This document shows, in pieces, positions 26,440 to 30,747 of a stretch of 31,783 bases of DNA. The DNA is from a virus. Made by a program: the position numbers and the translations under genes. Each line of letters starts with the position of its first letter. The first letter of the stretch is position 1. The notes beneath the pieces were generated by a model. That model was not told the origin of the DNA. It did no database searches and saw only the letters and a program-made list of their open reading frames with translations. The stretch is taken from positions 1 to 31,783 of IMG/VR virus record IMGVR_UViG_3300031772_000178. One strand, given 5' to 3'.

Positions 26440-27237
26440 ATGCCAGACCTGAATACGTTCATCCATCATTTCCGACATGGGTTCCAACCAGAGAACCGCT
26501 TTGTGTGTCAGATTCAGACGCTCAGCATCTACAACGCGATCAAGGTGCAGCAGGCGGGCACCCAACGCACGGGCATCGTCGGAGCGATTGAGGATATTGT
26601 CGGGGCGGTCCTTGGTGAAGGCAGCAACGATTTGTCCTTTGCATCGGATCTCCTTGGACGCGGTCTGTTGTGCGAAGCTACGTCCCTCCCAAGTCGCGCC
26701 TTCCAAACGATGACCCAGACGATGTATGGCTTCAGCGAGCAGTTTCCTATTGCCGCAGAATACGTGCCGATCACCTGCACCTTCTCCATGCCGTTGTTCG
26801 GTACCAGTTCACCGATTATTACATCCCTTGAAAATCGTGCGCTAGAAGCTGTGTTGCCGAGTGCCGTGAAGGTCACCATCAAGACACCCGCGACCAATCC
26901 GTTGCCGGCGTTCTTCTCTGCATGGCAAAATCTCATTCAGAATGCGACGAACGGCCCCGCGTCGGGATTCAATTTGCGGTTCCCCTCGGAATATTACACG
27001 ACCATGCAAGTGATCACATATGACAAGCAAGACAACGTGTCGCTGGTCTATGCGTTTGAAAACGTCTATCCGCGGCTTGTTGAATCGGTGCCTGTGTCGT
27101 GGAGCGCCGATGGCTTCGCGAAGCAGCAAGTGAGTTTTCAATACAGCCATTGGCATCTGCTCCACACGAACCCATCCAAACTCAGTATTGGTCTCAGTGG
27201 TGTACCGTTCATTGGAGGCGGCACCATCAACTTCTAA
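26440..27237 (+). CDS. gp54: Baseplate tail tube initiator, gp54-like
   Basis: The 265-residue protein has the tube-fold pattern of gp19/gp54-type proteins: PENRFVCQIQTL near the N-terminus, LLCEATSLPSRAFQT near 75, YGFSEQFPIAAEYVPITCTFSM near 95, then NLRFPSEYYTTMQVITYDKQ, YAFENVYPRLVESVPVSW and a final VSFQYSHWHLL. In T4 gp54 is placed on gp48 and starts polymerisation of the tail tube. The partner gp48 lies just across the divergent gap. An alternative is a paralogous tube-like protein, since tube, initiator and cap share the fold; the adjoining gp26/gp51 and tape-measure genes favour the initiator. Confidence 0.7.
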   Translation: MPDLNTFIHHFRHGFQPENRFVCQIQTLSIYNAIKVQQAGTQRTGIVGAIEDIVGAVLGEGSNDLSFASDLLGRGLLCEATSLPSRAFQTMTQTMYGFSEQFPIAAEYVPITCTFSMPLFGTSSPIITSLENRALEAVLPSAVKVTIKTPATNPLPAFFSAWQNLIQNATNGPASGFNLRFPSEYYTTMQVITYDKQDNVSLVYAFENVYPRLVESVPVSWSADGFAKQQVSFQYSHWHLLHTNPSKLSIGLSGVPFIGGGTINF

Positions 27238-27248: not shown

Positions 27249-27974
27249 ATGTCCATACCCATACTCGCAATTCCTGAATATACCGTGAAGCTCTACTCGC
27301 TCCCGAAACCCGTGAAGATCCGTCCGTATTTGGTGGGTGAAGAAAAGATTCTCATGCTCGCACAGCAGGGAGAGGACCCCAAAGAAATTCGTAATGCCGT
27401 TGAGCAGATTTTGCGCATCTGCACGTTCGAGAAAGTGGACATTTCGAAGCTCCCATCGTTCGACTTGGAATACCTCTATTTGCAGTTGCGAGCGAAGTCG
27501 GTCAACAACATCGTGCAAGTGAATTATCGTTGCCGCAATCGCCCTGTGGACGGAGAGGCGGAATGCGGGAATGTCGTGCCCGTCAATATCGACTTGAACA
27601 CGATTGCGTTCAAGACGGTCCCTGAACACACGAACAAAATCTGGTTGAACGATCAGGTGGGTGTGACGTTGGCATATCCGTCAAAGGAGATCATCGAGCA
27701 CGTCCAAGCACAAAATGGTGTGTTTGGTATTGACCTCCTGGTGGGATGTCTCCGCACGATTTTCACTAAAGCCGGTGAGGTTCACGAGGTCAGTGAAGCC
27801 GACCCCGCAGAAATTGAGAAATTCATTGCGTCATTGAGCGTGTCGCAATTTGCCAAGGTTCAGACCTTCTTTGATACGATGCCAACATTGACACATTCGG
27901 TCGCTTTTGAATGTAAGAAATGTGGATTCAAGCAGGACTTGGTGGTGTCGGGACTCATGGATTTTTTCGTCTAG
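27249..27974 (+). CDS. gp26: Baseplate hub / tail assembly chaperone gp26
   Basis: The 241-residue protein corresponds to the T4 base plate protein family (gp26). It starts with a conserved PEYTVKLYSLPKPVKIRPYLVGEEKILMLA-type segment, then helical EIRNAVEQILRICTFEKVD and LPSFDLEYLYLQLRAKSV. Two cysteine pairs, C-x10-C near residue 100 and CKKC near residue 226, look like a zinc ribbon. T4 gp26 is needed for hub assembly. The gene ends in a slippery T-run two codons before its stop, and a -1 shift there would fuse it to the gp51-like frame, giving about 304 residues. It is followed by the tape-measure-like gene, the usual place of tail assembly chaperones. Confidence 0.85.
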   Translation: MSIPILAIPEYTVKLYSLPKPVKIRPYLVGEEKILMLAQQGEDPKEIRNAVEQILRICTFEKVDISKLPSFDLEYLYLQLRAKSVNNIVQVNYRCRNRPVDGEAECGNVVPVNIDLNTIAFKTVPEHTNKIWLNDQVGVTLAYPSKEIIEHVQAQNGVFGIDLLVGCLRTIFTKAGEVHEVSEADPAEIEKFIASLSVSQFAKVQTFFDTMPTLTHSVAFECKKCGFKQDLVVSGLMDFFV

Positions 27975-28162
27975 GCCAGAGTCATGATACTCTGGCGAAT
28001 TACTACGAACTGTGTTTCAATCTCAAGAAGTATCATGGATGGTCAATCAACGAAATTGATCAATTGCTTCCCTTTGAGAAAGATGTGTATGGACTGCTAA
28101 CGCGCCAGTGGATTGACGAAGAAGAACGAAAGGCGCGCGAACGGAACATGGGTAAACACTAA
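27920..28162 (+). CDS. gp51: gp51-like baseplate hub assembly protein, probably made as a gp26 -1 frameshift fusion
   Basis: The frame overlaps the end of gp26 and stays open to a stop at 28162. The conserved-looking part begins only after the gp26 stop: LANYYELCFNLKKYHGWS, INEIDQLLPFEKDVYGLL and WIDEEERKARE, the pattern of gp51-type hub assembly proteins in T4-like phages. The only in-frame ATG (27920) lies inside gp26, has no good ribosome site, and would give a first part (GLGGVGTHGFF) that is just gp26 out of frame. The natural reading is therefore a -1 shift at 27962-27968, adding 64 residues to gp26. T4 gp51 is a separate, longer gene. The stop overlaps the next ATG (TAATG). Confidence 0.75.
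   Translation: MWIQAGLGGVGTHGFFRLGQSHDTLANYYELCFNLKKYHGWSINEIDQLLPFEKDVYGLLTRQWIDEEERKARERNMGKH
27962..27996 (+). promoter_or_regulatory. Programmed -1 frameshift signal (slippery heptamer plus hairpin)
   Basis: In the gp26 frame the codons read GAT TTT TTC GTC TAG, so the heptamer T TTT TTC (27962-27968) fits the X XXY YYZ rule for simultaneous -1 slippage. After a 6-base spacer, GCCAGAGT (27975-27982) and ACTCTGGC (27989-27996) form a perfect 8-bp stem with a 6-base loop. The shifted reading enters the gp51-like frame directly. No expression data are available. Confidence 0.75.
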
Positions 28163-30186
28163 TGCCGAAATTTACAACGGAAGAACTCGCCTCTCTCAAG
28201 CGCCAGGGGTTTACTCCAAAGCAAATTGAGGAACTGTCGATCAAGGGCACGATTGTCGGGGGCGAGACTGACGATCAAATCGCCGAAGCCACGGTCGCTG
28301 CGGTCGTATCCACGCCCGTGGCCAAGAAAACCAAGAAAATCAAGAAGTCGAAGAAAATGAAGGTGCCGCAAGGGCCCGAATTTCAGGCGCTCCGTCTGAT
28401 GCTCAATGACCCCGAATTGGGAGAGCTATTCGATCTCGATATGGCGAAACCCGAGAAATCGAAATCGCCTGCATTGGTGCCACATCCCGACCTCGCGGCG
28501 CCACCTCGCATGACGCTGGCGCCCGATGAACCGACCTTCGACAGCCCCGTGGCGGTACCAGTGACACTGTTCAAGGCGCAAGTCACGACCCTCCAGAAAA
28601 TTCAAACGGGCCTCTATGATTTTTTCCGTGAGGAGCGCGATAGTGAAAAAGATATTCGCGAAGAACGAGAACGAGAACGGAAAGACAAAGAAGCGCGTCC
28701 GCCCTTGCGGATCACCACCGCAGTGCAGGGGGCTGGCAACGATATCAAGCGTGCCTTCAAGAACAACCTTGAGCAAGATGCGGTGGGTAAACTTCTGAGC
28801 GCAGGTTTGTTGGAAATGCTTGAGCCACTAGGGTCCGCGGCTCTGATCGCCGGCGCCGCATTGGGTGGTTGGGAAATTGGTTCCGTGATTGCCCAAGTTA
28901 TGGGACTCGGTGATTCCTCAGAGGCGCTCGCGAAACTCTTTGATACGAGCGGGCAATCATTGGGCGACACCTTCGATGCTATCAAACATGGCATGATGGA
29001 AACAATGAAGAGATGGTCATTTGGGCTCTTGGGAAAAACCGAAGAAGAAATAGCGGCTGAAGAAGCGGGACCCGTGTTCATCGCGGAGCGGAACAGAAAA
29101 AATGCTGCGGCACAGGCAGCGAAGGCCCGTGCAACGGCAAACACCTCTCCTCTGCTCAACGACACGAGCGACAATCTCAAGACAGGTGCCGTAACAGAAC
29201 CCGTTCCGACGAATCCCGATCTGGTCAACGACACGAGCGACAATCTCAAGACAGGTGCCGTAACAGAACCCGTTCCGACGAATCCCGATCTGGTCAACTC
29301 TCCTCTGCTCAACGGCACGAGCGTCAATCTCAAGACAGGTGCCGTAACAGAACCCGTTCCGACGAATCTCGATTCTATGAGTTGGCCGAATATGGCGCCA
29401 TCAGCGGTCGTCGGTGGTGCGGGACACGTTCTTTCCACACCCGCGCTTGCGCCGACGCCAACACCCGCACCGACAGTTGGGACGCCCGCGAGTGTGTCCA
29501 CCAGCGCGACGATTCAATCTGTTATATCGTCGGAGAAAGACGCCATCATAGTCAAGATGTCGGATGGGACCATTCAGAAGCGTATGGGATCGCGGTCCTG
29601 GCGTAACAACAATCCAGGTAATATCATTGCGGGACCGGGCATGGTCCCGACGAAGGATGTGGGCAACGGGATGAAATACGCGGTATTTCCTGATCTCGCA
29701 ACAGGAGAAAAGGCACGGGCCGATTTGCTATTCAAGTCCACGCACAAATATGGAAAGAAGGGACACGAATCCGCGTATAAAGACAAAACCGTCAGCGAGG
29801 CGATTGCCACGTATGTAGGTGACCCCAAGGCGGTGAAGGCCTACCAAGCGGTGGCGCGAAAAGCCTTGGGTGGGATCGATCCCGTCATGAGCACGCTCAC
29901 CCCCGAACAGCAGCGAACGCTCTTAAATGCCATGAAGAATCACGAAGGATGGAAGGCCGGGCGCGTGGAAACGCTGCCAAATACCATATCCCCGTTGCGA
30001 GCAGCAGGCGGACTGGCAACCACAGCACCAGGTGGCGGATCGCCGGTGACGATTATCAACAATAATACCACGAATGTCGCCGGTGGAAAATCTGGAGGCA
30101 CTGTGGTTATGCCGTTCCCCGTCGCTCCGCGCAACGGTGACGCTACATTGGCGGCATTGCGTCAAATGAACGGGCTCGGCGGGTAA
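28162..30186 (+). CDS. Tape-measure-like virion protein with C-terminal RNNNPGNI muralytic-type domain
   Basis: The 674-residue protein follows the gp26/gp51 frames with a 1-base overlap, the position of a tape measure protein (T4 gp29). It opens with a short helical domain (FTTEELASLKRQGFTPKQIEEL) and a Lys-rich run near residues 50-68. A highly charged helix rich in Arg and Glu spans about 154-180. A hydrophobic Ala/Gly/Ile stretch at about 224-250 could insert in a membrane. Three copies of a 23-residue Thr/Pro-rich repeat lie at 333-404, followed by a Pro/Ala linker. The C-terminal domain starts with RNNNPGNI at 481-488, then GMKYAVFPDLATGEKA and YVGD, a pattern seen in virion-associated peptidoglycan hydrolases. 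Length control of the tail and a muralytic role are inferred from position and domain; I cannot prove homology to gp29. Confidence 0.75.
   Translation: MPKFTTEELASLKRQGFTPKQIEELSIKGTIVGGETDDQIAEATVAAVVSTPVAKKTKKIKKSKKMKVPQGPEFQALRLMLNDPELGELFDLDMAKPEKSKSPALVPHPDLAAPPRMTLAPDEPTFDSPVAVPVTLFKAQVTTLQKIQTGLYDFFREERDSEKDIREERERERKDKEARPPLRITTAVQGAGNDIKRAFKNNLEQDAVGKLLSAGLLEMLEPLGSAALIAGAALGGWEIGSVIAQVMGLGDSSEALAKLFDTSGQSLGDTFDAIKHGMMETMKRWSFGLLGKTEEEIAAEEAGPVFIAERNRKNAAAQAAKARATANTSPLLNDTSDNLKTGAVTEPVPTNPDLVNDTSDNLKTGAVTEPVPTNPDLVNSPLLNGTSVNLKTGAVTEPVPTNLDSMSWPNMAPSAVVGGAGHVLSTPALAPTPTPAPTVGTPASVSTSATIQSVISSEKDAIIVKMSDGTIQKRMGSRSWRNNNPGNIIAGPGMVPTKDVGNGMKYAVFPDLATGEKARADLLFKSTHKYGKKGHESAYKDKTVSEAIATYVGDPKAVKAYQAVARKALGGIDPVMSTLTPEQQRTLLNAMKNHEGWKAGRVETLPNTISPLRAAGGLATTAPGGGSPVTIINNNTTNVAGGKSGGTVVMPFPVAPRNGDATLAALRQMNGLGG
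29158..29373 (+). repeat. Three tandem copies of a 69-bp in-frame repeat
   Basis: Copies at 29158-29226 and 29227-29295 are identical over the full 69 bases as read. A third, slightly diverged and incomplete copy at 29311-29373 follows a 15-base insert that repeats the bases just before copy one (the SPLL codons). The encoded unit starts NDTSDNLKTGAV and ends in PTNPDLV. It falls in the linker region of the tape-measure-like protein. Confidence 0.95.
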
Positions 30187-30390: not shown

Positions 30391-30747
30391 CTATTTTGGA
30401 ACAGTGCCGTGGGGTGTCGGATAGAGCTTCGCGACGAGCGGGCGCACGGTCGCCCACGGGCACAAGTGCGCGTGACCAGTTTCGTGATGGCAATGATAGC
30501 ATCGCTTTTCATCGTATCCAGGTTTGGTCACATACGGATCAACCAACGTTAATTGGTAGAAATGCAACAGGTAATTCAGCGTCTTGTCTTTGTCCTGCTG
30601 TGAAGGGTGGGCATGCAGTTCGTTGCGCACATCGCGCAACCGGTGCTCGTAGCGTTTTCCCCGAAGGTACTGGACGACGGGCCGCCAAAGAAGGAGCGCC
30701 ATCAACGCGATGGCGCTCCCCCACAAAATCATCGTACCGGTCAACAT
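30391..30747 (-). CDS. Small membrane protein with a Cys/His cluster, unknown function
   Basis: The 118-residue protein has an N-terminal hydrophobic segment (about residues 6-28, ILWGSAIALMALLLW) followed by a basic stretch, so an N-out, C-in single membrane anchor is likely. The middle is helical and charged. Near residue 82 a CYHCHHETGHAHLC cluster offers three Cys and several His, suitable for zinc or another metal. I recognise no family. It begins 2 bases after the gp32 stop and ends at a strong terminator, so it is the last gene of a gp32 transcript. An internal ATG at 30732 is an alternative start that keeps the membrane segment. Confidence 0.7.
   Translation of the reverse strand: MLTGTMILWGSAIALMALLLWRPVVQYLRGKRYEHRLRDVRNELHAHPSQQDKDKTLNYLLHFYQLTLVDPYVTKPGYDEKRCYHCHHETGHAHLCPWATVRPLVAKLYPTPHGTVPK

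Follow-up and report, generated by a model that had tools for sequence, protein, structure and literature searches.

Frameshifting is reportedly conserved in several groups of T4-like phages, T4 itself being said to use genes 26 and 51. In phage lambda, G/GT consists of a short protein and a minor -1 extension of it, encoded between the tail tube and tape measure genes. Atkins et al. (2016, PMC5009743) describe this G-T frameshift as widely conserved among phages with long tails, 'except T4'. T4-like tail assembly chaperones (TAC) and their poly-T frameshift sites were identified by Vladimirov, Gautam & Davidson (2022, Virology 566:9-15), a study which, as cited by later papers, described poly-T -1 signals in the TAC-N genes of T4-like phages (via PMC12846349) and, in some T4-like phages, one short and one long fused gene in place of frameshifting (via PMC10885494). 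For Vandenendeviridae and Andersonviridae, too, a -1 frameshift has been proposed, at a poly-T motif where TAC-N ends (PMC12846349). Here we analysed a 31,783-bp linear IMG/VR virus record, probably a fragment (IMGVR_UViG_3300031772_000178; hereafter the window), in which a gp26-like gene is followed by a gp51-like region in the -1 frame. This gene pair is very probably a T4-like tail assembly chaperone of which a -1 frameshift would yield a short and a long form.

Three hallmarks of a frameshifted T4-like chaperone, namely a gp26 TAC-N, a gp51-like -1 tail and an in-phase terminal heptamer, are present in the window as predicted features. The frameshift device itself is already published, and the window is a new example of it in an uncultured lineage; as far as the 2022 work is described in the papers citing it, the window differs from the published chaperones in this lineage and in a strong hairpin right after the spacer. 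Lambda G/GT differs in its slippery sequence and its protein sequences, while the Vandenendeviridae/Andersonviridae motif is GTTTTT and belongs to other phage families. T4 26/51 shares the N-domain family and the tail with the window but consists of separate, divergent genes, with no heptamer at the end of 26. Three features are possibly new: the clade-specific hairpin, an upstream Shine-Dalgarno (SD)-like element, and the retention of the -1 tail in an Ackermannviridae-like clade that lacks the heptamer.

A candidate frameshift site joins gp26 to a gp51-like tail

The gp26-like gene (27249-27974; all features lie on the + strand unless stated otherwise) encodes a 241-aa protein, the predicted short chaperone (TAC-N), whose family membership is given by PF12322 (E 1.5e-55; score 188.7, cutoff 24.5 bits) and phrog_150 (E 6e-57). 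Its reading frame closes at a TAG (27972-27974), shortly after the slippery heptamer T TTT TTC (27962-27968), whose zero-frame codons are TTT and TTC. The sequence-only reading of this locus had placed the heptamer there in gp26 phase, which is exact base for base, and had put it two codons before the stop, where the actual distance is one codon; the 6-nt spacer that it described is also present (GTC TAG, 27969-27974, including the stop). From the heptamer, the -1 frame is open between 27968 and 28162, as had been claimed, and encodes the 64-aa gp51-like tail (TAC-C; RLGQSHDTL...NMGKH), which matches phrog_634, labelled 'baseplate hub assembly catalyst', with E 1.7e-18. When we looked in the 31.8-kb fragment for a second long gene of the T4 type, the gp51-like tail was present only as the -1 extension of gp26.

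Taken alone, the slippery motif is unremarkable: bare TTTTTTC occurs 7 times in the window against 5.5 expected, and is thus not rare; the case is carried by conservation in relatives. Across 16 open reading frames (ORFs) of the window, in-phase X XXY YYZ motifs (Y = A/T) number 16 in 8618 codons; apart from T TTT TTC at the gp26 end, none of them is a T6 heptamer that lies within 10 codons of a stop.

The heptamer is conserved across distant relatives

Across 201 gp26 loci, of which some are duplicated and many are just 25-40% identical, 198 have T TTT TTN at their 3' end, in phase and opening into a gp51-like tail. In the first relatives gathered (30-99% identical), every locus reaching the 3' end had the heptamer in phase, 0-1 codons before the stop, together with a homologous -1 tail. 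Of 16 public phage records sampled, 12 likewise had heptamer and tail (HTVC008M, S-PM2, P-SSM2, Milchi, RHph_I1_9, Atu_ph04, nt-1, ACP17, Melnitz-3, Mosig, AS-zj and C48C1). After the addition of 80 more metagenomic loci, the heptamer was present in 118/121 loci, the window counted, as TTTTTTC (80), TTTTTTT (31), TTTTTTG (4) or TTTTTTA (3). A second set, which partly repeats earlier contigs, had it in 80/80 loci, and a deeper set in 41/65, all 24 exceptions (L213-L236) falling in one clade. On contigs long enough to cover it, the tail behind the heptamer is homologous and measures about 55-80 aa. Taxa with the heptamer comprise Kyanoviridae, Pootjesviridae, Busanvirus, Menderavirus and several Straboviridae (Mylasvirus, Schizotequatrovirus, Emmerichvirinae).

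Judged by codon usage within these genes, both synonymous sites should carry T in ~42% of loci (0.61 x 0.69), as compared with 118/121 observed; we used this unselected count and set aside a 94/94 count of T at these sites, since its loci had been preselected for the heptamer. The synonymous T's are therefore kept far above the codon-use expectation, and the encoding of Phe-Phe alone does not demand the heptamer. Taken together, these data leave the earlier proposal, that gp26 and gp51 are joined by a -1 frameshift like lambda G/GT, as the best explanation of the junction, given that the arrangement is conserved in about 200 relatives. Of the proposal that this phage keeps or has regained the frameshift, 'keeps' is better supported than 'regained', the heptamer being spread over the taxa named above.

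A lineage-specific hairpin and an upstream SD-like element flank the heptamer

Directly after the spacer lies an 8-bp hairpin with a 6-nt loop (27975-27996; GCCAGAGT-CATGAT-ACTCTGGC), a probable downstream stimulator, which had been described as perfect and is so at exactly these positions. RNA folding of 27969-28010 returned exactly this hairpin at -13.8 kcal/mol, and only 1 of 200 dinucleotide shuffles folded as well; over the longer stretch 27940-28040, overall stability was ordinary (z -0.18). With the window's clade delimited by gp26 similarity and not by the hairpin, all 6 of its nonredundant loci (the window, L044, L045, L046, L127 and L129) have a hairpin directly after the heptamer. 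In the four clade sequences that share a register, 2 of the 8 pairs are changed on both sides (C-G to G-C; G-C to A-U), and 93.8% of alignment cells pair, as compared with 22-50% when the alignment is slid by 1-3 columns. These paired changes are suggestive of a conserved hairpin, in only four sequences, all of which encode a conserved peptide as well.

Over all 143 nonredundant loci, the window's clade counted, stems scoring at least 8 and starting soon after the heptamer were found in 4.9%, against 0.9% of control positions. A general downstream hairpin across relatives was considered and rejected, mean folding z near the site being only about -0.4. The cyanophages S-PM2 and P-SSM2 and one further locus (L025) have long stems of their own. 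The hairpin, to which the sequence-only reading had given much weight, is thus present throughout the window's clade but is lineage-specific and not general; in the alignment of the junction across relatives that it had proposed, the heptamer is conserved and the stem is restricted to some lineages.

Upstream of the heptamer, most of the 143 nonredundant loci have a GARGG/AARGG element at a fixed spacing, about 7-15 nt away. Anti-SD duplex energy over 94 loci peaked, at a mean of -6.1 kcal/mol, for 8-mers whose 3' end lies 7 nt before the heptamer, and the best match in that zone averaged -6.2 against a control mean of -1.7. The element is also stronger in real genes than in synonymous codon shuffles (-5.71 vs -4.65), by a Wilcoxon test that ignores kinship. 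In the window, the corresponding stretch (27947-27954), located from the anti-SD duplex profile of relatives and ending 7 nt before the heptamer, is weak: at just -4.0 kcal/mol it does not exceed synonymous shuffles, whereas the element is strong in most relatives. Such an upstream element resembles the SD-stimulated site of dnaX.

T4 genes 26 and 51 correspond to short and long chaperone forms

The statement that T4 26 and 51 are separate genes is correct but incomplete, since T4 gp51 holds a gp26-family domain plus the tail. T4 gp51 (249 aa) matches PF12322, the gp26 family, over residues 1-201 with E 3.9e-52 and the gp51 family at its C-terminus; T4 gp26 consists of the N-domain only. A search profile made from 154 frameshift tails picked up the C-termini of T4-type gp51 proteins (T4, Aeromonas 31, Acj9, SFHK24 and RB43; E 1.6e-11 to 3e-7), and no gp26 passed its inclusion threshold. 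Judged by their domains, T4-type phages encode the short and long chaperone forms as two genes, gp51 being a stand-alone long form.

In an N-domain tree with long branches, its root placed for drawing only, the gp51 copies formed one clade (98/95), and the frameshift phages together with one further clade formed another (99/98). Given this tree and the frameshift among Kyanoviridae, Pootjesviridae and several Straboviridae, the simplest reading is that the T4 branch lost the frameshift through a duplication that gave a short and a long gene, a direction that we infer. The window would add an uncultured lineage to the published rule that, outside the T4 branch, T4-like phages frameshift to make short and long chaperones, whereas T4 has replaced this with two genes.

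The sampled Straboviridae with two genes are L208, L209, L210, L211 and T4 (M77695, L031); 26 and 51 are divergent in T4, Aeromonas 31, Acj9 and SFHK24, and lie in tandem on one strand in RB43, with the short gene second.

Proposed mechanism and alternative explanations

In the proposed mechanism, most ribosomes would end at the gp26 TAG and release the 241-aa TAC-N. On T TTT TTC, the two Phe-tRNAs, in the P and A sites, may re-pair one base back (TTT, TTT), a slip that would be aided by the downstream hairpin and, in most relatives, by the upstream SD-like contact. A minority of ribosomes would continue with CGT CTA GGC... to give TAC-NC, a gp26-gp51 protein of 304 aa. The short form would, like its lambda counterpart, coat the tape measure protein, and the tail of the long form would, also as in lambda, recruit tail tube subunits. 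We infer slippage, its efficiency and the chaperone function. The proposal that gp26 acts like lambda gpG rests on the order of the genes, on the pairing of a short with a long form and on the published identification rather than on structure.

Several observations weigh against this interpretation. The case for a frameshift at this locus is read from sequence, and the relatives that carry it are non-independent samples. At a threshold of at least 7, stems occur in just 9/143 nonredundant loci against 2.9% of control positions, and mostly in the window's clade. The protein encoded downstream, in the position of the tape measure, is only weakly tape-measure-like. Against the PDB, gp26 had no match by sequence and its AlphaFold2 model none by fold (E<=0.001), leaving kinship to solved lambda-like chaperones unsupported by structure; with no match to lambda-type TAC families either, descent from a lambda-type chaperone is unsupported.

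We considered it improbable that gp51 is a separate small protein made from its own start by reinitiation after the gp26 stop, with the T6 run merely encoding Phe-Phe. Public records annotate gp51 as its own coding sequence (CDS), and the window has an in-frame ATG 16 codons upstream of the tail. This ATG is the sole in-frame start ahead of the tail, however, and is not found in clade members L045, L046 and L129; the next in-frame start in the window lies 32 codons inside the tail, in agreement with the earlier claim that gp51 lacks a credible start. More broadly, 98 of the 143 nonredundant loci lack any -1 frame ATG, GTG or TTG, both upstream of the slip site and within the first six codons of the tail. 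A separate gp51 would also leave the retention of the heptamer's synonymous T's without a reason, as Phe-Phe needs none, and in T4-type phages the tail occurs only within a long protein. As for the annotations, for frameshift phages the public records examined (L028-L043, L204-L212) either list gp51 as a CDS of its own, in most cases with a start inside the tail, or omit it, and among their annotation rows we found no joined gp26-gp51 frameshift CDS; in these T4-like records gp51 appears to be mis-annotated as a separate gene, its start having been missed.

Slippage of RNA polymerase on the T6 run would result in the same kind of fusion, and the T run is indeed present in nearly all members. 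We regard a transcriptional origin of the shift as less probable still: a run of 6 bases is short for it, it needs no fixed codon phase, whereas the T TTT TTN phase is kept in all but one clade, and the position of the hairpin and the SD-like element suit ribosomal stimulators. The least probable explanation, that an assembly or sequencing indel at the junction homopolymer splits a single gene in the window, is refuted by isolates, as the same layout is seen in independent metagenomes and in cultured S-PM2, P-SSM2, HTVC008M, nt-1 and ACP17.

One clade retains the -1 tail without the heptamer

At the gp26 end, all 24 exceptional loci (L213-L236) as well as Vi01, barely, phiMAM1 and P01 have N RTT TTY instead of the heptamer, as in GAA ATT TTC ATT TAA; Vibrio phages K413 and K476, of the same clade, have CTT in place of RTT. 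The gp51-like tail is still open in the -1 frame in heptamer-less loci, and in those inspected from Ackermannviridae such as Vi01 there is no ATG, GTG or TTG before mid-tail. One way in which the tail might be expressed in this clade is slippage of only the P-site Phe-tRNA on T TTY. In K413 (L035) and K476 (L205), a TAATG stop-start overlap at the gp26 stop favours a separate gp51, and there the tail could come from reinitiation as a separate small protein. The loci that lack T TTT TTN and keep the -1 tail (L213-L236, L204, L212, L037 and L042) belong to Ackermannviridae and relatives.

We tentatively propose, as a scheme that may well prove wrong in part, that the T4 superfamily has a fixed core, T TTT TTN with an SD-like contact 7-9 nt upstream, to which exchangeable lineage hairpins, as in the window's clade, would be added to tune the short:long ratio. 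The Ackermannviridae-type clade would have eroded to N RTT TTY, its -1 tail persisting by a non-standard, possibly single-tRNA, slip. The clade hairpin, the SD-like element and the heptamer-less clade form a natural series for studying how the product ratio is set.

Neighbouring genes

In the right part of the window, the T4-like tail genes comprise a gp4-like gene for head closure, a gp2-like DNA end protector, a tail tube or tube initiator gene upstream of gp26 (26440-27237; phrog_45 tail tube, E 2.7e-22), gp26, the gp51-like region and a gene for a 674-aa protein; gp32-like and baseplate genes lie on the other strand. An AlphaFold2 model of gp26, built with 46 relatives, had a pLDDT (predicted local distance difference test) of 92, and among viral models it matched predicted gp26 proteins and one 'hub assembly catalyst'.

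The 674-aa gene (28162-30186) lies in the tape-measure position directly 3' of the gp51-like tail, its ATG overlapping the tail's stop at 28162. Its weak match to phrog_2276 (tape measure; E 3.4e-5) is restricted to residues 425-596, and comparison with putative tape measures of relatives gave no convincing similarity. The protein has a repeated NDTSDNLKTGAVTEPVPTNPDLV-type segment, and its C-terminal stretch (about residues 425-596) is similar to tape measure and endolysin families. Searches of PHROG and Pfam gave no match for a 118-aa ORF further downstream (30391-30747, - strand), which has a cysteine/histidine-rich stretch (CYHCHHETGHAHLCPW).
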